A DNA stretch of 64,000 nt from Gammaproteobacteria bacterium (GTDB taxonomy: Bacteria; Pseudomonadota; Gammaproteobacteria; Steroidobacterales; GCA-2729495): positions 1 through 64,000 of the forward strand of contig JADZBS010000003.1 of NCBI GenBank assembly GCA_020851975.1, read 5' to 3'. Below, one piece after another: positions 5,187 through 49,436 of the stretch; within the stretch, counting starts at the first letter, position 1; each line of letters begins with the position of its first letter. The notes beneath the pieces were generated by a model. The model ran no database searches. It had not been told where the DNA came from and was given only the letters and a program-made list of their open reading frames with translations. The translations under genes and the position numbers were made by a program.

Positions 5187-6294
5187 CCGGCGCCAGCGCC
5201 GGCCGGTCGAAGAACCGGCGGATCACGGGACGGAAGCGGTCCATGTCGACGAGGAACGAATCGTGCCCCTGGACCGAGGCGAGTTCCTCGAACTCGACCT
5301 CGGCCGCACCGGCAGCGAGGCCCGCGGCCAGTTCGCGCTGCTGGTGGATGGGGAAGAGGATGTCGGTCGACACGCCGATGACCAGGGCGCGCTCGGCGCG
5401 CACACCCGCCAGGACCGTGGCGACCGATCCCCCGTGCTCGGCGAGATCGAACAGGTCGCTCGCCCGCGAGAGGTATAGGTAGCAGTTCGGGTCGAACTGG
5501 CCGGTGAACTTTCTGGCATGTGCTTCGAGATAACTCTCGATCTCGAAGGCCGGCGCGAAGGCATCACCGTTCCGCCGTTCGTCGGGGATGCGGTCGCGGC
5601 CAAAGCGCTGCTCCCACTCCCTTGCAGACCGATAAGTGATCATGCCGAGCTTGCGCGCCATGCGCATGCCGGCGACAGGCCCGGTGGCCGTGTCGTAGCG
5701 GCCTTCGTCCCAGGCCGGGTCACGGCGGATGATCTCCCGCTGCAACGAGCGCATCGCGATGGCGAACGGCAGCGCACGCGCGCCGCAGGAGATGAGCAGC
5801 AGCCGGCGCGCGCTCCCGGGGAACATCGCCGCGTAGCCGAGCGCCGTCATGCCGCCCATCGACGGCCCGACCAGCGTGTGCAGCACGTCGATGCCGAGGT
5901 TTTCGAGCACACGGCGGCCGGCGACAGCGACATCCTCGAGCGTCAGCACGGGGAAGCCGAGGCGGTACGGCTGGCCGGTACGCGGGTCGATCGAGGCAGG
6001 CCCCGTGGATCCGAAGCAGCTGCCGAGCGAGTTCACGCAGATGACGAACCAGCGGCGCGTGTCGATCGGACGTGAAGGTCCGACGCTCTCCTCCCACCAG
6101 CCGGGCGTCGGGTCGGCCGGCGAGGAGCTGGCATGTGCCGAGGGCGAGAGGCCGGTGAAGATCAGGACTGCGTTGTCGCGCTGCGCGTTGAGCCGGCCCC
6201 AGGTCTCGTAGGCGATCACCGGACGCTCGAGCACGCCGCCGCGACGCATCTCGAAGCTGCCGGGAATCTCGTGGTACTGTCGCGCGCCGCTCAC
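5134..6294 (-). CDS. MetX-family homoserine/serine O-acyltransferase
   Basis: Alpha/beta-hydrolase-fold acyltransferase of the MetX family, 386 residues from the preferred GTG start, which has GGAAGGA 8 nt upstream; a TTG at 6327 would add 11 residues. The oxyanion motif GSCFGSTGPAS and the nucleophile elbow GPSMGGM (Ser145) are present, with the triad completed by Asp in STDILFP and His in GHDSFLVD. The family comprises homoserine O-acetyl- and O-succinyltransferases and serine O-succinyltransferases. The elbow is GPSMGGM rather than the GGSMGGM typical of homoserine acetyltransferases, so the substrate is uncertain. A serine-acylating role is worth considering because cysE is missing from its usual nearby place. 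Confidence 0.85.
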   Translation of the reverse strand: MSGARQYHEIPGSFEMRRGGVLERPVIAYETWGRLNAQRDNAVLIFTGLSPSAHASSSPADPTPGWWEESVGPSRPIDTRRWFVICVNSLGSCFGSTGPASIDPRTGQPYRLGFPVLTLEDVAVAGRRVLENLGIDVLHTLVGPSMGGMTALGYAAMFPGSARRLLLISCGARALPFAIAMRSLQREIIRRDPAWDEGRYDTATGPVAGMRMARKLGMITYRSAREWEQRFGRDRIPDERRNGDAFAPAFEIESYLEAHARKFTGQFDPNCYLYLSRASDLFDLAEHGGSVATVLAGVRAERALVIGVSTDILFPIHQQRELAAGLAAGAAEVEFEELASVQGHDSFLVDMDRFRPVIRRFFDRPALAPVRVGPWPVRDTVARRLP

Positions 6295-39744: not shown

Positions 39745-40338
39745 CTACTTCGTCGCGGGCGCCGCCGGCACCCCACCGCCGCGGGGAAAGCTCGCGAGCA
39801 CCTGCGTAACGGCCAGATCGACCGCTGCAGACGGATTCTCGCGCACTTCCTTCGTGATCCGTCCCTCGGCCACGCCCTGCCAGACCAGTTGCCGGCGTTG
39901 TGCATCGACGACATCGATGGCGAGCGTGCCCTGCTTGTAGTTGGTGGTGGTGACGTCCTGCGGGTAGCCGGTCCAGGCGCCATACATGCCGGCACGATAG
40001 CCGTAATAGCCGTAGCCCACGCTCATGCTCGGCGAGCTGCGCACCTCGGTCTTGTCCACGATATTCACGTTGAAGTTGACCAGCATGTCCGGATTGGCAT
40101 CGGCGTACTCGTAGCCATGGGCCTGCAGTTCGCGGCGTGTGGCCTCCTTCAGGCGCGCGGTCAGCAACGTGGAATAGCCCGCCTTGTCCGTGGCGAGCGG
40201 CTCGAAAAATCCGAAGCTGCGATAGGCCGCGAAGTTCGCGGCTGGATCCGCGTCGACACGGATCGAGGGCCCCGAGGCACAACCAGCCAGACTGGCGGCC
40301 ACCGCCGCGACGGCCGCGAACGCACGCATGGGACGCAT
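39745..40338 (-). CDS. DUF4136-like lipoprotein
   Basis: A 197-residue lipoprotein with signal peptide ending in LAGC (Cys20) from ATG 40338; ATG 40329 is an alternative. The opening IRVDADPAANFAAYRSFGFFEP and the repeat-poor beta-rich core with DMLVNFNV resemble DUF4136 proteins. It contains a Tyr/Gly-rich stretch (VGYGYYGYRAGMYGAW). The function is unknown; membership is by pattern only. It probably ends in the envelope (no Asp at +2, so outer membrane is likely). Confidence 0.75.
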   Translation of the reverse strand: MRPMRAFAAVAAVAASLAGCASGPSIRVDADPAANFAAYRSFGFFEPLATDKAGYSTLLTARLKEATRRELQAHGYEYADANPDMLVNFNVNIVDKTEVRSSPSMSVGYGYYGYRAGMYGAWTGYPQDVTTTNYKQGTLAIDVVDAQRRQLVWQGVAEGRITKEVRENPSAAVDLAVTQVLASFPRGGGVPAAPATK

Positions 40339-40417
40339 GGACGATCTCCTTCGTTCGGTACTGGACAAGGCTAGTCTGAGCGCCTCACGCCTGACCGGCA
40401 AGGCCATGCACGGGTCG

Positions 40418-41620
40418 CTAACCGGCGCCGACCACGCCGGCGGCAATGAGCGCCTCGATCTCGGCCGCCTCGTAGCCCGCCTCGGCCAGCACTTCGCGCG
40501 TGTGCTGCCCGGCACGCGGCACGTCGCGCAGGACGCCGAAGCGGTGGCCGTCCATCTCGAGTGGCAGCGCCGGCAGCCGCGTGCGCTCGCCCTTGCGCGC
40601 GCCGTCGGTGACCGTCAGCGGCAGCAGGCCGCCGCCGGCGAGCAGGTGCGGATCGTCGAACAGCTGTTCGGGTTTCGCGATGGGCGCAAAGGGCAGGCCG
40701 GTTTTTTCGAGCTTTGCCATCAGCTCCTGCTTGGTGTATTTCAGGAACGTGGCCTTGATGACCGGCAGGATGCGGTCCTTGTGGGTGACGCGATCGCCGT
40801 TGGTGTCGAGCGAGCGGTCGGCAGCGAGATCCTTCAGCTCGAAGGCCTCGCACAGCAGCTTCCATTGCTTGTCGCTCACCACGCCGACGAACACCTGCTC
40901 GCCGTCGCCGGTGTCGAACACCTGGTAGATCGCCCAGGCGGAGACCCGCACGGGCATTGGCGCGGCGGCCTTGCCGGTGACGGCGTACTGCGCCATGTGC
41001 TGCCCGACCAGGAACACGGTGCTCTCGTAGAGAGACGCGACGATGTTCTGGCCCTTGCCCGTCGCCTCGCGCTGATACAGCGCGGCAATGATGCCGAGGG
41101 CACCGAACATGCCGCCCTGCACGTCGATCACCGAGGTGCCGGCACGCAGCGGCCTGCCGGGCGGCCCGGTCATGTAGGCGAGCCCGCCCATCATCTGCGC
41201 CACTTCATCGAGCGCCGTGCGCTCCTCGTAGGGACCGCTGAGGAAGCCCTTTTCCGAGCAGTAGATCAGCCGCGGGTTGCGCCGGCCGAGCGTCTCATGG
41301 CCAAAGCCGAGCCGCTCCATGGTGCCGGGACGGAAATTCTCGATGACCACGTCGGCGCGGTCGATCAGGCGCAGCACCGCCTCCTTGCCGGCGGGAGATT
41401 TCAGATCGACGCACAGGCTGCGCTTGTTGCGGTTGTACATCGGGAAGTAGCCGGCACCGGAACCCGGCAGGTGCCGGGTACTGTCGCCCTCGGCCGGCTC
41501 GATCTTGATCACGTCGGCACCGAGGTCCGCGAGCATGAGCCCGGCGGCAGGGCCCATCACCATGTGCGTGAACTCCACGACGCGCACGCCGGCGAGCGGG
41601 AGGCTGGAACGGTCTGCCAT
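40418..41620 (-). CDS. CaiB/BaiF-family CoA-transferase
   Basis: Family III CoA-transferase, 400 residues from ATG 41620. The N-terminal Rossmann motif is RVVEFTHMVMGPAAGLMLADLGADVIKIE; the catalytic Asp is probably in TSVIDVQGGMFGALG. NFRPGTMERLG is typical. Substrates (dicarboxylates, carnitine, bile acids) cannot be told apart. It diverges from the HMG-CoA-lyase-family gene across 156 bp, so the two may act in one pathway. Confidence 0.9.
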   Translation of the reverse strand: MADRSSLPLAGVRVVEFTHMVMGPAAGLMLADLGADVIKIEPAEGDSTRHLPGSGAGYFPMYNRNKRSLCVDLKSPAGKEAVLRLIDRADVVIENFRPGTMERLGFGHETLGRRNPRLIYCSEKGFLSGPYEERTALDEVAQMMGGLAYMTGPPGRPLRAGTSVIDVQGGMFGALGIIAALYQREATGKGQNIVASLYESTVFLVGQHMAQYAVTGKAAAPMPVRVSAWAIYQVFDTGDGEQVFVGVVSDKQWKLLCEAFELKDLAADRSLDTNGDRVTHKDRILPVIKATFLKYTKQELMAKLEKTGLPFAPIAKPEQLFDDPHLLAGGGLLPLTVTDGARKGERTRLPALPLEMDGHRFGVLRDVPRAGQHTREVLAEAGYEAAEIEALIAAGVVGAG

Positions 41621-41711
41621 GCAGTTTCTTGCCTGTTGAAGGGAACGGCGTGCCCGGCCACCGGGCGGTGCCGGCCTGCGGGCGGCGGAATTATCGCCCA
41701 CGGGCTGCATA

Positions 41712-41717
41712 TAGAAT
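41712..41717 (+). promoter_or_regulatory. -10 box for the HMG-CoA-lyase-family gene
   Basis: TAGAAT in the intergenic region, about 60 bp upstream of the start codon, in an AT-rich patch (CATATAGAATAG). Confidence 0.4.
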
Positions 41718-41776
41718 AGTAGCCATGGCCCCGGACCGGGCCGGACCGCCTCACGGATTGGCTGAGGAGCCGCAAC

Positions 41777-42739
41777 ATGCAGACGACTGCCGACATCGAC
41801 GTGCTGGTGAGCGAGGTGGGGCCGCGCGACGGCCTGCAGAGCATCAAGGCCGTCATGCCGACTGCGGCCAAGAAGGCCTGGATCGCTGCCGAAGCGGCCG
41901 CCGGCGTGCGCGAGATCGAGGTCTGCTCCTTCGTGCCCGCGAAACTGCTGCCGCAGATGGCCGATGCCGCCGAAGTGGTCGCCTTCGCGCGCACCATCCC
42001 CGGGCTCACGGTCCTGGCGCTGGTGCCGAACCTGCGCGGAGCCGAAAACGCCATCGCCGCCGGCGCCCACAAGATTGCGCTGCCGCTGTCAGCGAGCGAG
42101 ACCCACAGCAAGGCCAACCTGCGGCGCACGCACGACCAGGTCATCGAGGAAGTGCGCCAGATCGCTGCACTGGTCCGCTCGCTGCCGGCCGACCGCCGCC
42201 CCGGCTTCGAGGGCAACGTCGCCACCGCCTTCGGCTGCACGCTCGAGGGTCCGGTACCGGAACGCAAGGTGGTGGAACTCGCCTGTCGCCTGGTTGAGGC
42301 CGGTGTCGACGAGGTGGGGCTCTCGGACACGACCGGCTACGCCAACCCGCAGCAGTTGAGGCGACTCATCCGCCTGGTGCGCGCCGAGATCGGCGCCGAG
42401 AGGCTGTCCGGTGTGCACCTGCACAACACGCGCGGGCTCGGTCTCGCCAACGCGCTCGCCGCGCTCGAGGAAGGCATCACCACGCTCGACAGTTCGTTGG
42501 GCGGGCTCGGCGGCTGTCCCTATGCGCCAGGCGCGAGCGGCAACATCGTCACGGAGGATCTCGTCTTCATGCTGGACGCCATGGGGCTGCGTACGGGCAT
42601 CGACCTGCCCCGGCTGCTGGCGGTGCGCCGCATCCTGGCCGAAGCGCTGCCCGGCGAGGCACTCTACGGGTTCACCCCCGATGCGGGCCTGCCGAAAGGC
42701 TACGAACCGGGCGGCTGGGGGATCGCCACGGCGGCCTGA
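41777..42739 (+). CDS. Hydroxymethylglutaryl-CoA lyase family protein
   Basis: TIM-barrel lyase of the DRE-TIM family, 320 residues. EVGPRDGLQ gives the metal Asp and Arg, SVHLHNTRG-type VHLHNTRGLG the metal His pair, and the C-terminal GGCPYAPGASGNI contains the HMG-CoA-lyase signature with the loop Cys. AGGAG precedes the ATG. Known roles are leucine or HMG-CoA breakdown and, in some relatives, citramalyl-CoA cleavage. The divergent CoA-transferase is consistent with activation of an organic acid before cleavage. Confidence 0.88.
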   Translation: MQTTADIDVLVSEVGPRDGLQSIKAVMPTAAKKAWIAAEAAAGVREIEVCSFVPAKLLPQMADAAEVVAFARTIPGLTVLALVPNLRGAENAIAAGAHKIALPLSASETHSKANLRRTHDQVIEEVRQIAALVRSLPADRRPGFEGNVATAFGCTLEGPVPERKVVELACRLVEAGVDEVGLSDTTGYANPQQLRRLIRLVRAEIGAERLSGVHLHNTRGLGLANALAALEEGITTLDSSLGGLGGCPYAPGASGNIVTEDLVFMLDAMGLRTGIDLPRLLAVRRILAEALPGEALYGFTPDAGLPKGYEPGGWGIATAA

Positions 42740-42774
42740 CGGTCGGCCGTGATCAGCATGCGGGCGCCACCTCC

Positions 42775-43935
42775 ATGAGCCGCCTGCCCCCGTTGTACCG
42801 GCCGGAGCTGCTCTCGCCCGCGGACCGCGAGCGCCTGGCGCAGGTGCTCGCGCGCATCGACGAGGCCGCCGACCGCTTCCTCGGCTATCCCTGCTCCGGC
42901 CGTTTCGACTACACGCCGCTCTACCCCTTCCTGCGCTACCCGCTGAACAACGTCGGCGATCCGTTCGTCCCGACGACCTTTGCCGTGCAGACGCACGACA
43001 TCGAAGTCGAGGTGCTGGAGGCATTCCGGGAGTTCACCCGCGCGCCGCGCGACGGCTTCTGGGGCTACGTCACCAACGGCGGCACCGAGGGCAACATGTA
43101 CGGCATCTACCTCGCCCGGGAACTGCACCCGGACGGGGTCGTGTACTACTCGGAGGACACGCACTACAGTGTCGCCAAGATCCTGCGCCTGCTGCACGCG
43201 CGCAACATCATGATCCGCAGCCTGCCGGGTGGAGAGATCGACTACGAGGACCTGCACGCGACGATTGCCGTGCGCCGCGACGTGCCGCCCATCATCTTCG
43301 CCAATATCGGCACGACGATGACCGGCGCGGTCGACGACCTCGCCCGGATCCGCGCCGTGCTCGCCGACCTCGCCATCCCGGCGTCCTACATCCACGCCGA
43401 CGCAGCGCTGAGCGGCATGATCCTGCCGTTCGTCGACGACCCGCAGCCGTTCGGCTTCGACGACGGCGTCGACAGCATCGCCATCAGTGGCCACAAGATG
43501 ATCGGCGCACCGATACCCTGCGGTGTGGCGCTCGCCCGGCGTGCCGCCGTCGACCGCATCGCCCGTGCGGTCGAGTACATCGGTACGCTGGACACCACGC
43601 TCTCGGGCTCCCGCAATGCGATCACGCCGCTCATGATGTGGTATGCGCTGCGCACGCAGGGCACGGCTGGTTTCCGCACCATCGTCGCCCGCTGCATGGA
43701 CATGGCAGACAACGCTATCGCGCGCATGCGCGCTGCCGGCATCGATGCCTGGCGGCATCGCAACTCGATCACCGTGGTGTTTCCACGGCCGGGACCGGCC
43801 GTCATCGCGCGCTGGCAGCTCGCCGTGCACCGCGACATCGCCCACCTGATCGCCATGCCCCATGTCGAGGAGCGCCACGTGGAGGCGCTGGTGGCCGATC
43901 TGGTGCGCGACCGCAGCCAGGAGGGCAAGTCATGA
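42775..43935 (+). CDS. hdc: PLP-dependent histidine-decarboxylase-like enzyme
   Basis: A 386-residue group II decarboxylase closest in character to the Gram-negative PLP histidine decarboxylases. Shared segments: GYVTNGGTEGNMYG, SEDTHYSVAK (His130), ANIGTTMTGAVDD, LHADAALSGMI-type IHADAALSGMILPF, and the PLP Lys241 in ISGHKMIGAPIPCG. Plant serine decarboxylases belong to the same clade, so serine is an alternative substrate. No histidine/histamine antiporter is adjacent. It is coupled by ATGA to an ACT-domain gene. Confidence 0.83.
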   Translation: MSRLPPLYRPELLSPADRERLAQVLARIDEAADRFLGYPCSGRFDYTPLYPFLRYPLNNVGDPFVPTTFAVQTHDIEVEVLEAFREFTRAPRDGFWGYVTNGGTEGNMYGIYLARELHPDGVVYYSEDTHYSVAKILRLLHARNIMIRSLPGGEIDYEDLHATIAVRRDVPPIIFANIGTTMTGAVDDLARIRAVLADLAIPASYIHADAALSGMILPFVDDPQPFGFDDGVDSIAISGHKMIGAPIPCGVALARRAAVDRIARAVEYIGTLDTTLSGSRNAITPLMMWYALRTQGTAGFRTIVARCMDMADNAIARMRAAGIDAWRHRNSITVVFPRPGPAVIARWQLAVHRDIAHLIAMPHVEERHVEALVADLVRDRSQEGKS

Positions 43936-44327
43936 AGCAGATCACAGTGGTCGCCCGCAACCGGCCAGGGCTCCTCGCCGATGTCACCGGAACGCTCGCC
44001 GCAGCGGGCATCGACATCGAGAATGCCGATGCCCAGGCCTTTGCCGATTCCGCCGTCATCCTGCTCACCGTGGACCGCTACGACGACGCGCTGCGGGCCC
44101 TGCGCTCCGTGCCCGAGATCAATGCGGTCTCGGAGGATGCGATTCTCGTTCGGCTGCAGAACGAGCCGGGTGCCCTCGCCAGGTTGTCGCGCCGTTTCAA
44201 GGACGCCGGCATCGACCTGCGCAGCATCCGCTTCCTGCAGCGCGACGATGACTTCGCGCTGGTCGCCATCTCCACCGGCCGCAACGCCGAGGCACTCGAC
44301 CTGGTGAAGGACCTGCTGGTGGGTTGA
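43932..44327 (+). CDS. Tandem ACT-domain protein
   Basis: A 131-residue protein made of two ACT-like domains (about 1-65 and 70-131; MKQITVVARNRPGLLADVTG and LVRLQNEPGALARLSRRFKD). ACT domains bind amino acids. Its start overlaps the stop of the histidine-decarboxylase-like gene by 4 nt, so production is coupled. I infer that it senses the substrate or product of that enzyme; no catalytic domain is present. A similar stand-alone form is found near other amino-acid enzymes. Confidence 0.85.
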   Translation: MKQITVVARNRPGLLADVTGTLAAAGIDIENADAQAFADSAVILLTVDRYDDALRALRSVPEINAVSEDAILVRLQNEPGALARLSRRFKDAGIDLRSIRFLQRDDDFALVAISTGRNAEALDLVKDLLVG

Positions 44328-44331
44328 GGAC

Positions 44332-44357
44332 GGTGCCGGGCTTTCGGGCCCGGCACC
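44332..44357. terminator. Bidirectional hairpin between the ACT gene and the porin
   Basis: A perfect 10-bp stem (GGTGCCGGGC/GCCCGGCACC) with a 6-nt loop in the 37-bp convergent gap. No T-run follows on either side; the position supports a transcription end. Confidence 0.6.
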
Positions 44358-44364
44358 CGCACCG

Positions 44365-45618
44365 TCAGTACTTGAAGTTGAGGTCGAGCTGGAAGCGGTC
44401 GTAGTTGTGCTCGACGCCCGCATTCCCGCCAACCTCGTTGATGAAATAGGAGAGCGCGGCACTGGTCTTGTCCGTCAACGCGTAGGCACCGCGCAACAGG
44501 TGTCCGGAGTTGTCGGTGCCGCCGCCACCGAAGTCCGAATCCGTCCAGAGCCCGAATACCGCGTCGCGCTCCAGATCCTGATAGGCATAGAGGAACTCCC
44601 AGCTGCCCCGGGCCTTGGCCACGCCGAGTTGCGCGCCCGCCGCCCAGCCGGTGTCGAACTCGCCGGCATCGGTGTTGGTGACGTAGTCGATGAACAGGGA
44701 CACGGGCATGCCGAACAGCGCGAAACCAAGCTCGGCAAAGCCCTCCAGCTCGTCGTAGTCGTAGAGGTAGCGGTTGTTCGCGTCCACCGAATTGCCGAAG
44801 AACTTCGCCGACTTGCCCGGCACGGCATAGAAGCCGCCCTTGCCCTCGGTATTGATGGTGAAGTAGCCGGCACCAGCCGTCAGCTTCAGTCCATCCGCGA
44901 AGGGCCAGGCAACGCCGATCTGCCCGCCGGCGCCGATCGCCTCCGTGCTGTCGCTGTCGCTCTCGACCCAGGTGGTCATGGCGTTGGCGAAAAAGATGCC
45001 GTTCACGTACGACAGCCCGAGACCCTCCGGATTGAGGTCGCCGTCCCAGATCAGCGAGTGCTTCCCGGGCTTGTAGAGGTTGTTCCTGAACTTGCCGCCG
45101 ATGACGTTCAGGCCTTCCGCCGCCGCCCAGTTGAAGTAGGCGAGGTCGAGATAGATGTCCTTGCGCGAGCCGCCGCTGCCGATCGTCTGGTTGCTGGACA
45201 CCGGATCGGCATCCTGACTCGTGGACAGCCCGAAACCGACCTCCAGACCAGGCTCCGGCCTGGCGACGATCCCGGCGCGTGCGCGGATGCGTTCCCGGTT
45301 GCGCTCATCGCTCCTGCTGTCGTCGTCGATGTTCTCGTAGCGACCGCGCAGGTCGCCCTGCAGCGTCACCTTCTCGGCCCATGAAGCCGCGGCCGGCCTG
45401 GCTGGTGCCACTGCAGGTGCCGCAGTCGTCGCCACGGCCTCCGCCTGGCCCGTACGCGCCTTCTCCGCAGCCAGCGCCTGCTCCATCTGACCGAGCTTCT
45501 GCGTAAGGGCCGCGATGCTGTCCTTCAGCGCCTGGAACTCCGCGTCGGTGACGGCGGCCGGGGTGAGCGGGCTGGCGAGCAGCAGGCCTGCCGCCAGAGC
45601 GAGTCGTTTGCCGTTCAT
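44365..45618 (-). CDS. Putative outer-membrane porin of the Pho locus
   Basis: A 417-residue outer-membrane beta-barrel candidate. Residues 1-22 are a signal peptide, followed by a short coiled coil (FQALKDSIAALTQKLGQMEQ), an Ala/Pro linker and then alternating amphipathic strands ending in the aromatic terminus LNFKY. This layout is shared with trimeric OprO/OprP-like and 'putative porin' families. GAGGTG is at the ribosome-binding position before ATG 45618. A Pho-box-like site is 59 bp upstream, and pstB is 169 bp upstream on the same strand, so a role in phosphate or phosphoester uptake is likely. Confidence 0.83.
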   Translation of the reverse strand: MNGKRLALAAGLLLASPLTPAAVTDAEFQALKDSIAALTQKLGQMEQALAAEKARTGQAEAVATTAAPAVAPARPAAASWAEKVTLQGDLRGRYENIDDDSRSDERNRERIRARAGIVARPEPGLEVGFGLSTSQDADPVSSNQTIGSGGSRKDIYLDLAYFNWAAAEGLNVIGGKFRNNLYKPGKHSLIWDGDLNPEGLGLSYVNGIFFANAMTTWVESDSDSTEAIGAGGQIGVAWPFADGLKLTAGAGYFTINTEGKGGFYAVPGKSAKFFGNSVDANNRYLYDYDELEGFAELGFALFGMPVSLFIDYVTNTDAGEFDTGWAAGAQLGVAKARGSWEFLYAYQDLERDAVFGLWTDSDFGGGGTDNSGHLLRGAYALTDKTSAALSYFINEVGGNAGVEHNYDRFQLDLNFKY

Positions 45619-45660
45619 GTTCGATGCACCTCTCGTGATTAAATCCATTGGAACGGGTGC

Positions 45661-45694
45661 ATTGTCATTCCCCGAGGTTACGGATGCGTGACAC
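45661..45694 (-). promoter_or_regulatory. Pho box and -10 of the porin
   Basis: GTGTCAC-GCAT-CCGTAAC (45677-45694, minus strand), then exactly 10 nt and GACAAT (45661-45666). Consensus PhoB boxes are 7-4-7 with second half CTGT(A/C)A(C/T). Confidence 0.6.
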
Positions 45695-45787
45695 GAACGA
45701 CATGCGCCCAATGCTGCCTGCAGATCACTGGCTGAAGTCAGGCACCGTCCATCAGCCGGCGTGGCGCTGGGCGTCGCGTGCACTGCC

Positions 45788-46681
45788 TCAACCAAATCGA
45801 CCTGTCACGTAGTCTTCGGTCAGCTTGTGACCTGGATTGGTGAAGATCTTCTCGGTGGGACCAACCTCGACGAGATTCCCAAGGTGAAAGTAGGCCGTAC
45901 GCTGCGATACCCGCGCAGCTTGTTGCATCGAGTGGGTGACGATCGCGATCGCGTACTTCTCGCGCAACTCATCGATGAGGTCCTCGATTCGCGCCGTGGC
46001 GATCGGATCGAGCGCCGAGCAGGGCTCGTCCATCAGGATGACATCGGGGCTCACCGCAATGGCTCGTGCAATGCACAGTCGCTGTTGCTGCCCACCGGAC
46101 AGCCCGGTACCCGGTTCGTCGAGGCGGTCCTTGACCTCGGCGAGGAGACCGGCACGTTCGAGGCTTTCGTAGACGATGTCGTCGAGCTGCCGGCGGCTGC
46201 CGGCGAGACCGTGAATACGCGGGCCATAGGCTACGTTCTCGAAAATCGACTTCGGAAACGGATTCGGCTTCTGGAACACCATGCCGACACGTGCCCGCAG
46301 GAGCACGACATCCATGTCCTTCGCGTAGATGTCCTGCCCGTCGAGGCGGAAATCACCCGTTACCCTGGCGGACTCGATGGTGTCGTTCATGCGGTTGAGA
46401 CAGCGGATGAACGTTGACTTGCCGCAGCCGGACGGGCCAATGAGCGAGACCACCTCGTTGCGACCGATGTCGAGACTGACCTGCTTCAGGGCGTGCGTGT
46501 CGCCGTAGTGCACGTTGCAGTCACGTACGGTGATCACCGGTTCGCGGGCATGGATATCGCCGACGGTTCCGGACCCGCCCCCCGTTCGTTGACTGGTGGT
46601 CGGTATTACAGGTCGATCAGTGCTTCGGTCGTCCAACGGCACGACAGGACTGCCTCCAGGCAGGGCGTTTTCGCGTGTCAT
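45788..46681 (-). CDS. pstB: Phosphate ABC transporter ATP-binding protein PstB
   Basis: Energises phosphate import through PstAC. The product is 297 residues from ATG 46681, with a 45-residue N-terminal extension before the ATPase (typical PstB is about 255). Walker A is [10 protein letters not shown], the Q-loop [10 protein letters not shown], the signature LSGGQQQRL, Walker [15 protein letters not shown] start inside the extension cannot be excluded. It follows pstA by 50 bp. Confidence 0.95.
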
Positions 46682-46731
46682 AGTTACCACAAGCTGAAGC
46701 TCCAGGTCACCGTCCGGCGGCGGTTCGCGAC

Positions 46732-48051
46732 CTACCAGCGCCGCTCGAAGCGCCTGCGCAGCCAGACCGCCGCCAGGTTCATGACGAGCAGGAAGGCCAG
46801 CAGCACCATGATGGCCGCCGAGGTCCGCTCGATGAAGGCCCGCTCGGGACTGTCCGCCCATAGGTAGATCTGCACCGGCAGCGCCGTGGATGGATCCAGC
46901 GGCGTGCCTGGCACATCCGCCACGAACGCTACCATGCCTACCATCAGCAACGGCGCTGATTCACCGAGCGCGCGTGCCATGCCGATGATGGCACCCGTGA
47001 GCATGCCCGGCAGTGCCAGCGGCAGGACATGATGAAAGACCGTCTGCATCGGCGAAGCGCCGATGCCAAGCGCCGCTTCGCGCACCGAAGGCGGCACGGA
47101 CTTGATGGCTGCGCGTGCCGCGATGATGATCACCGGCAGCGTCATCAGCGTCAGCACCAGTCCGCCCACTACAGGTGCCGAGCGCGGCAGACCGAGAACG
47201 TTGATGAACACGGCCAGTCCCAGCAGGCCGAAGACGATCGATGGCACGGCCGCGAGATTGTTGATGTTGACCTCGATGAAGTCCGTCCAGCGATTTCGCG
47301 GCGCGAACTCCTCGAGGTAGATCGCCGCCGCCACACCGAGCGGGAACGACAGCAGCAGCGTCACCAGCAGCATGAAGAACGAACCCTTGGTGGCACCCCA
47401 GACGCCGGCCATCTCGGGTTCACGCGAATCACCGGAAACGAAGAACGCCCGGTTGAAATGCAGCTCCAGGCGCCCTTCGGCCTTGAGCCGGTCCACCCAG
47501 GCCAGTTGCGCCCCGCCGGGTCGTCCGCTGACCCCTGCTCCTCGCCCCACGTGGCCCTTGAGGAGCATGTCCACGAAGTCGTCTGCCGGCAGCCACAGCG
47601 ACTGGCGGGTGCCGAGCAACGAGGGGTTGGCGAGCAGCAGATCGCGAAGTTCGTATGCCGCCATCGGGCTGACCAGCCCATTGAGCTCACGACGTTCCCG
47701 TCGTTCCGTCACTTCCGGAAATTGCTCGCCCAGCGCAGACTTCACGAGAAGCTGGTAGTCGGCTCCGGACAACAGTCCCGGCTCGGCTCGACCCTCGGGA
47801 TCCAGCAGGGCACGATCGAAGTGGATGTCGAGCCGGACCTGTGCCTGACGGAAGGCGGAATAGCCGTTGCCAACGACACTGGCGAGCAGCAAGCCCAGGA
47901 AGACGATTCCGAACATCACCGAGAACAGGCCATACAGGCGAAACCGGCGCTCGCTGGCATGGCGCCTTGCAACTCCCGCCTCCACCTTCCGTCGCGCCTC
48001 CGACACGGGCCGTGTTGGGTTCGCATCCGCTCCGGGGTTGTCGTTGCTCAT
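46732..48051 (-). CDS. pstA: Phosphate ABC transporter permease PstA
   Basis: Inner-membrane permease, 439 residues, longer than E. coli PstA (about 296) because of an N-terminal cytoplasmic and periplasmic region (the DUF3333-type extension, about residues 30-210). The membrane core begins near [16 protein letters not shown]; the EAA-loop is [20 protein letters not shown]. The start overlaps the stop of pstC by 4 nt. Confidence 0.94.
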
Positions 48052-49436
48052 TCGTACTGCTCCCGGTAACGACGCACGACCAGGAGCGCGACGATATTGA
48101 GCACCAGCGTGACGATGAACAGCACCAGCCCCAGGGCGAACGCCGCCAGCGTCTTCGGGCTGTCGAACTCCTGGTCACCCACCAACAGAGTGACGATCTG
48201 TACCGTCACCGTAGTGACAGCCTCCAGCGGATTTACCGTTAGCCGGGCCGATAACCCCGCGGCCATCACCACGATCATGGTCTCGCCAATGGCACGGGAT
48301 ACCGCCAGCAGCACGCCACCGACGATGCCCGGCAGCGCGGCCGGTATCACCACGCGACGGGTGGTCTCCGAAGTCGTGGCACCCAGGGCAAGCGAGCCGT
48401 CGCGCAGCGACTGTGGCACGGCATTGATGACATCGTCGGACAGAGAAGATATGAACGGGATGATCATCACGCCCATCACGAGCCCGGCGCCGAGCGCACT
48501 TTCCGAGGCCACGTCGAGGCCCAACGCTTCGCCGCCCTCACGCAGCAGTGGTGCCACCGTCAGCGCAGCGAAGTAGCCGTAGACAACCGTCGGGATGCCG
48601 GCCAGCACTTCCAGCAGCGGCTTGACCAGCGCGCGCATGCGCGGTTCCGCATACTCCGACAGGTAAATGGCGACCATCAGGCCAATGGGCACGGCCACGG
48701 CCATGGCGATGGCGGAGATCAGCAACGTACCGGCGAACAGCGGAACGGCGCCGAAGGCGCCCGAGGATCCGACCTGGTCGGGGCGTAACGCCGTCTGCGG
48801 ACTCCACTCGAGGCCGAACAGGAAATCGATGATGGGCACCTGACCGAAGAAACGCACTGCCTCGAAGATCACCGACAGGAGGATGCCGACGGTCGTGAAG
48901 ACAGCGAGAGTCGAGGCGCCGATGAGCAGCGCCTTGACCATCGCCTCGACGCGATTTCGTGCCCTAAGCTGCGGACGTATTGTCCAGCACGCGAGCGCAC
49001 CACCAGCCAGCGCGAGTGCCAGCACGACCGCGGACAGCAGCCAGCGGGAAGCTGAGTGCAGCGCGAGAAACCGCCCGGCAACCGGTTCCAGCTCAGGCGG
49101 CCTCTCCCCGCCCATGGCCTGGCCGGAAGCCAGGGCGCGCACTTCATTCAGCACCAGACTCAGCTCCGACGCCTCCATTGAACGGTACGGCTCCGGCAGT
49201 GTCGTGATGACCTGTCCCATGACGACCCGGTCGCCGACCAGAGCCCACAACGCCAGCACCAGCAGCGCAGGAAGCGCCGAACACAAGGCGGCGTAGTAGC
49301 CATGGTGCGCAGGCAGCGAATGCAGATTGCGAATGCCACGATGACCACCGGCCATGGCGATGGCGCGGCGGCGGGCAGCGAAGTAGGCCAGTATCACCAG
49401 GGTGGCGAAGAGCAGCAGCATGGTTGTCAACCGCAT
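48048..49436 (-). CDS. pstC: Phosphate ABC transporter permease PstC
   Basis: Partner permease of PstA, 462 residues from ATG 49436 (MRLTTMLLLFATLVILAYFA, an extra N-terminal helix). As with PstA it is longer than in E. coli (about 320) through an N-terminal extension of about 150 residues. The EAA-type loop is SLALGATTSETTRRVVIP. Start at 49436 rather than 49505 because the upstream residues do not fit a membrane protein. Confidence 0.94.
   Translation of the reverse strand: MRLTTMLLLFATLVILAYFAARRRAIAMAGGHRGIRNLHSLPAHHGYYAALCSALPALLVLALWALVGDRVVMGQVITTLPEPYRSMEASELSLVLNEVRALASGQAMGGERPPELEPVAGRFLALHSASRWLLSAVVLALALAGGALACWTIRPQLRARNRVEAMVKALLIGASTLAVFTTVGILLSVIFEAVRFFGQVPIIDFLFGLEWSPQTALRPDQVGSSGAFGAVPLFAGTLLISAIAMAVAVPIGLMVAIYLSEYAEPRMRALVKPLLEVLAGIPTVVYGYFAALTVAPLLREGGEALGLDVASESALGAGLVMGVMIIPFISSLSDDVINAVPQSLRDGSLALGATTSETTRRVVIPAALPGIVGGVLLAVSRAIGETMIVVMAAGLSARLTVNPLEAVTTVTVQIVTLLVGDQEFDSPKTLAAFALGLVLFIVTLVLNIVALLVVRRYREQYE

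Follow-up and report, generated by a model that had tools for sequence, protein, structure and literature searches.

A histidine decarboxylase-like gene coupled to a double ACT-domain gene: a candidate amino-acid decarboxylase of two subunits, probably acting on a substrate other than histidine

Introduction

On which amino acid does an enzyme annotated as a bacterial histidine decarboxylase (HDC) act, and what is the role of the stand-alone sensor-type protein encoded directly behind it? This question is raised by a gene pair in a 64-kb stretch of gammaproteobacterial DNA (the window, meaning the whole stretch that was analyzed). We consider it likely that the pair encodes a ligand-regulated amino-acid decarboxylase of two subunits whose substrate is probably not histidine. 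We know of no PLP amino-acid decarboxylase with a separate ACT regulatory subunit, and no prior report of a histidine decarboxylase paired with an ACT domain was found among literature titles and the beginnings of abstracts.

Results

A decarboxylase gene and an ACT gene overlap in the window

The upstream gene (42775–43935, + strand) encodes a group II PLP decarboxylase of 386 residues, recognized from its open reading frame and from matches to PF00282 (74 bits against a cut-off of 27) and to the 'histidine decarboxylase' model NF002748 (470.6 bits against 305). It is the sole PF00282 match in the window's genome. The downstream gene (43932–44327, + strand) encodes a stand-alone double ACT-domain protein of 131 residues, a putative regulatory subunit, to which PF01842 matched above its cut-off over two stretches (58.5 bits). 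As an earlier note on this DNA had described, stop and start codons of the two genes overlap in an ATGA (43932–43935, + strand). An HMG-CoA lyase gene (41777–42739, + strand; NF004283, 285.7 bits) lies 35 nt upstream of the decarboxylase on the same strand and is possibly co-transcribed with the pair. Comparison of the window with an 87%-identical relative gave dN/dS values of 0.15 for the decarboxylase and 0.27 for the ACT gene, suggesting purifying selection on both. No Rfam family was detected at gathering thresholds around the pair (40000–48500).

The coupling is conserved across phyla

To survey relatives, genome contigs were scanned with four ACT-linked enzymes; 212 relatives were found, and the best 80 were kept, a set biased by the ACT-linked seeds and by the omission of the other 132. 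The phylogenetic co-occurrence that had been proposed as a check on the pairing was found: among these best 80 of 212 loci, 72 carry the ACT gene immediately behind the decarboxylase gene in the same orientation, and the two genes are fused into a single chain in two more, from a cyanobacterium (L071) and a member of the Silvanigrellales (L090). We counted L090 as a fusion, its ACT region having just missed the E cut-off of one neighbor scan. The intergenic gap in the 72 adjacent pairs is between −19 and +116 nt; the ATGA overlap is present in 31 of them. Three of the 80 loci (L067, L070, L110) lack an ACT gene although their flanks run to about 6 kb, and no ACT match above 35 bits was found elsewhere in those three genomes. 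At the remaining three (L056, L100, L104), the contig ends too early to judge; the L104 genome has an ACT match of 159 bits on a separate contig.

Coupled or fused pairs in this set (best 80 of 212) come from ten phyla. Nine of these are Armatimonadota, Chloroflexota, Cyanobacteriota, Gemmatimonadota, Nitrospinota, Planctomycetota, Pseudomonadota, Verrucomicrobiota and Vulcanimicrobiota, and the tenth phylum, Bdellovibrionota, is represented by a fusion. In a set of 40 genomes, the enzyme gave a strong match in four, including the window's own, and exactly these four also had an ACT protein match (E 1e-14 or better), always directly downstream. Within the genus the pair is patchy (two of ten genomes, the window's own included). 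Among 398 Pseudomonadota genomes, the enzyme (at least 559 bits) was present in three and the ACT partner (at least 135 bits) in two of them, adjacent to it; the third, G226, has the enzyme with no ACT gene beside it. Among 240 Verrucomicrobiota genomes, the enzyme was present in three, each with an adjacent ACT partner. An enzyme from Vibrio campbellii falls inside the ACT-coupled clade and also has no ACT gene. Taken together, L067, L070, L110, G226 and the V. campbellii member show that the ACT gene is dispensable, a point against the two-subunit reading. None of twelve further loci (eight plasmid loci, L125–L132, plus L113–L116) has an ACT partner; the view that known histidine decarboxylases come without one held in all eight plasmid-borne HDC-like loci.

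We then compared pairwise distances of the two proteins in a mirror-tree analysis. ACT and decarboxylase distances were correlated over 72 loci (r = 0.87; best 80 of 212, with L069 left out because its ACT sequence is partial), and none of 2,000 permutations reached this value (maximum r, 0.13). Such matched divergence can be explained by shared descent or joint transfer and needs no contact between the proteins. Matched divergence, fusions and ATGA overlap together lead us to argue that the pair is a working unit.

The two fused genes (L071, 2741–4435; L090, 5992–7665; both + strand) have in common some 25 additional residues that separate the ACT domains, so a single fusion event may underlie both. 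In the MAFFT alignment of the fusions (A5), the first ACT domain was misplaced.

The decarboxylase retains a group II fold and catalytic residues

An AlphaFold2 model of the decarboxylase (mean pLDDT 87.6) matched group II enzymes with Z-scores of 33–48. Among the matches listed, the closest solved folds were a histidine decarboxylase (7erv, Z 48.4), alanine decarboxylase (AlaDC; 8jij/8jik, Z 48.2) and serine decarboxylase (SerDC; 8jg7, Z 47.6), and sequence identity is about 48% to the HDC versus about 37% to the SerDC. Residues K241, H130, D209 and Y268 align with K314, H201, D282 and Y341 of AtSerDC, where they correspond to the PLP lysine, the stacking histidine, the aspartate to N1 and the catalytic-loop tyrosine; all four are invariant in our alignment A2. 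The codon of Lys241, the expected Schiff-base lysine within SGHK, lies at 43495–43497, and that of Tyr268, the expected catalytic-loop tyrosine, at 43576–43578 (both + strand). Loop 265–278, which holds Tyr268, is the sole stretch of three or more residues with pLDDT below 50, as fits a mobile loop.

In a midpoint-rooted tree, built without L104, L114, L115 and L116, the window enzyme and the other ACT-coupled enzymes belong to an 86-row group, which is divided from the HDC group with support of 98/88. The solved HDC (7erv) forms a separate group with L125, L127 and L128 (100/99). Scattered inside the 86-row group are the ACT-less L067, L070, L110, L113 and L126, the contig-end loci L056 and L100, and a long-branched Streptomyces pair (L129/L132). 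The placements of this Streptomyces pair, of Rhizobium L130 and of Fischerella L131 are unsure because their branches are very long. A different coupling is seen at L130 (3092–4177, + strand; Rhizobium sp. CB3060), where a four-base overlap joins the HDC-like gene to one for a fatty acid desaturase.

No further neighbor is conserved

The nearest flanking genes were surveyed at 65 of the 80 loci (best 80 of 212), after 15 near-duplicate loci had been set aside and six of 126 flanking proteins left out. Apart from the ACT gene, no conserved neighbor was found among the 120 flanking proteins, the commonest Pfam family occurring in three of them, suggesting that the decarboxylase–ACT pair is a stand-alone module. 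An HDC-type antiporter, searched for with the Klebsiella aerogenes hdc-linked query, had no match in the 64-kb window or in the 80 loci (best 80 of 212); the query's own locus was matched as a positive control. The absence of an amino acid/amine antiporter remarked on in the earlier note thus extends to the relatives, and a role in acid resistance is unlikely.

A few neighbors recur on a smaller scale. A valine–pyruvate transaminase gene (AvtA) lies directly upstream in four loci of Verrucomicrobia subdivision 3 (L048, L054, L055, L104), including the cut-off L104, where it precedes the decarboxylase; the call was above the family cut-off in the two loci tested and by similarity in the other two. 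An Lrp-family gene is divergent from the decarboxylase in L105 and L110, and the HMG-CoA lyase gene is found upstream only in the window and in its closest relative, L031 (best 80 of 212). These neighbors weakly suggest an aliphatic amino acid as substrate.

In L110 (Chitinophaga), which is ACT-less, the divergent Lrp-family gene occupies 5355–5819 (− strand). Lrp bears its own ACT-like sensor domain, so a swap of regulator is conceivable at this locus.

Replaced HDC signature residues make a histidine substrate doubtful

We then focused on residues that differ between the window enzyme and its characterized relatives. The codon of Cys40 (GYPC; 42892–42894, + strand) aligns with Tyr111 of AtSerDC, Phe106 of CsAlaDC and a glutamate of the Photobacterium phosphoreum HDC. 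This glutamate after GYP, a DW motif and His347 form a signature common to 7erv and the Klebsiella HDC, and these residues may set histidine specificity. In the window enzyme, HDC residues E40, DW62-63, F109 and H347 are all replaced, with C40, DPF and W347 present. The ACT-coupled enzymes as a group have C, V, A, T, S, G or I at position 40, DPF for DW, and almost always W for H347. In the plant enzymes, position 111/106 selects serine (Tyr) or alanine (Phe), as shown in PMC11407765. Position 40 is a cysteine in the window enzyme, and all coupled members have a small or branched residue there; annotation as a histidine decarboxylase is therefore doubtful, and a plant-type specificity for serine or alanine is not indicated.

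The substrate may instead be hydrophobic, for instance a branched-chain amino acid and in the first place valine, with the ACT subunit sensing such an amino acid; we put this forward tentatively. The small residues at position 40 of the coupled enzymes are in keeping with it, as are the transaminase upstream in four loci, the divergent Lrp gene in L105 and L110, the HMG-CoA lyase gene in the window and L031, and the match of the ACT protein to an acetohydroxyacid synthase (AHAS) small-subunit ACT model (43.5 bits). Some plant enzymes resembling serine decarboxylase act on leucine, methionine and phenylalanine, as stated in PMC4177580. However, each of the suggestive neighbors except Lrp is confined to one clade and none is conserved across the set, and ACT domains resemble one another generically.

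A bacterial serine or alanine decarboxylase under ACT regulation, yielding ethanolamine or ethylamine, is a more doubtful proposal. The motifs GDPF, WQLA and MP are common to the window enzyme, AtSerDC and CsAlaDC, and two plant HDC-like enzymes proved to be serine-specific (PMC4177580). Against it, Tyr111/Phe106 is replaced by cysteine here and by C, V, A, T, S, G or I in the family, whereas the AtSerDC mutants Y111A, Y111V, Y111L and Y111W lose serine activity and Y111I keeps less than 5%; cysteine is not among the mutants named in that report (PMC11407765). The same report describes a C-terminal zinc finger of three Cys and one His in the plant enzymes, but the corresponding cysteines are absent from the window enzyme, which has no Cys after residue 340. 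For the serine substrate offered in the earlier note, a plant-type specificity is thus not supported.

Unlikely, too, is a true histidine decarboxylase that makes histamine and has gained an ACT regulator. The score against NF002748 far above its cut-off and the P. phosphoreum HDC as best solved-structure match (48% identity) speak for this explanation. Against it, the tree sets the enzyme apart from the clade that holds 7erv and the Klebsiella HDC (98/88), the HDC residues at positions 40, 62-63, 109 and 347 are replaced, insofar as these determine specificity, and an HDC-type antiporter was not found nearby. A histidine substrate, also named in the earlier note, is not borne out by an enzyme placed outside the HDC clade and lacking its signature residues; the substrate is probably not histidine.

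The ACT protein as a putative regulatory subunit

The model of the ACT protein (mean pLDDT 95.2) has two ACT-like halves, each with β-α-β-β-α-β topology; the first domain is encoded at 43932–44135, where the best Pfam stretch covers residues 3–51, and the second at 44136–44324 (both + strand; assigned from Pfam and the secondary structure of the model). Among the solved folds listed, the closest is 2f06 (Z 11.7), and the rmsd of 10.3 over 129 residues indicates that the two halves are arranged differently. Taken singly, the halves match ACT domains of aspartate kinase, acetohydroxyacid synthase and phosphoglycerate dehydrogenase (Z 10–11). PF22629, the AHAS small-subunit ACT model, matched the protein, but AHAS small-subunit cut-offs were not reached (TIGR00119, 22.7 bits with a cut-off of 56.9; NF008864, 17.6 bits with a cut-off of 119). 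The PG of the NEPGALA loop in the second domain (44160–44180, + strand) is among the best-kept parts of the partner: G80 is conserved in 72 of 72 sequences and P79 in 70 of 72 (best 80 of 212 loci). Double-ACT matches at E 1e-8 or better occur in 139 of 240 Verrucomicrobiota genomes, and, given how frequent these weaker matches are, a common sensor family is the partner's probable origin.

In one verrucomicrobial genome (G612; L149, 1–1893, − strand), a close ACT copy (144 bits) opens a long frame whose further sequence is unlike a decarboxylase and which adjoins another long frame, possibly a different use of the same ACT sensor.

These features suggest the following scheme. Catalysis would fall to the 386-residue protein, a group II PLP decarboxylase acting as a dimer with its active site between the subunits, as in solved relatives. 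The 131-residue double-ACT protein would bind it as a regulatory subunit. A free amino acid might bind to the second ACT domain at its conserved D/N-x-PG-x-L loop, and the ligand-bound ACT subunit would then alter decarboxylase activity by allosteric control. In support of this scheme, the pairing is conserved and natural fusions occur, the two proteins diverge in step, the catalytic residues are intact and the partner has a double-ACT fold. The ligand-controlled complex suggested in the earlier note is well supported on its genetic side by the co-occurrence, fusions and co-variation in relatives (72 of 80 adjacent and two of 80 fused, best 80 of 212), and its physical and regulatory side is putative.

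An ACT protein that is co-transcribed with the enzyme but senses amino acids for another target, without being a subunit, appears improbable to us. Stand-alone double ACT proteins are common, as the Verrucomicrobiota count illustrates, G612 carries its close copy with no decarboxylase at the locus, and some decarboxylases have no ACT gene; the single-chain fusions, the translational overlap and the matched divergence argue the other way. That the enzyme supplies β-alanine in place of PanD is highly improbable, and as a general role is ruled out, since PanD, although not found in 22 of 40 enzyme-carrying genomes (mostly MAGs), is present in the window genome and its nearest relative (163 bits each) and in 18 of the 40 carriers, two of which (the L070 and L110 genomes) are ACT-less.

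Of the ten genomes of the genus that were searched, PanD was detected in just the two pair carriers (G000, the window genome, and G004), a coincidence that shared ancestry may explain.

Discussion

We favor a decarboxylase of two subunits under ligand control. A more specific picture, which we offer as speculation and hold to be rather unlikely in full, is a two-gene cassette spread over at least ten phyla. Its double-ACT subunit would be dissociable and would sense an amino acid of aliphatic or branched-chain type, switching the conversion of that amino acid to the amine by the decarboxylase, for example valine to isobutylamine. If true, the first PLP amino-acid decarboxylase known to us with a separate ACT subunit has been masked by a histidine decarboxylase label, and family members across many uncultured phyla are misassigned; genome-based predictions of histamine production would then be inflated. 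PLP enzymology would gain a case of ligand-controlled decarboxylation through a separate sensor subunit, an idea that the natural fusions make directly testable.

Comparison with known systems

The bacterial PLP histidine decarboxylases (P. phosphoreum 7erv/7eru; K. aerogenes hdc) resemble the window enzyme in fold, catalytic residues, identity of about 48% and the NF002748 match, but the window enzyme falls in a separate clade, has Cys for Glu, DPF for DW and Trp for His, and comes with an ACT partner and without an antiporter. The plant enzymes AtSerDC (8jg7) and CsAlaDC (8jik) are similar in fold (Z 47.6–48.2) and in the GDPF and WQLA motifs, whereas the window enzyme is about 37% identical, has Cys for Tyr111/Phe106, lacks the zinc-finger cysteines and has an ACT partner. 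L-Methionine decarboxylase of Streptomyces sp. 590 (7cif) has the same group II fold (Z 40.0), but is distant (101 bits) and longer, at 557 residues. Among stand-alone double ACT proteins, BT0572 (2f06) is the closest in fold over its 129 aligned residues, at 23% identity; we know of no link between BT0572 and a decarboxylase. Acetohydroxyacid synthase offers a parallel in working, a catalytic enzyme with a separate ACT small subunit that is echoed by the PF22629 match. Its chemistry depends on thiamine diphosphate, whereas the window enzyme is a PLP decarboxylase whose ACT partner scores below the AHAS small-subunit cut-offs.
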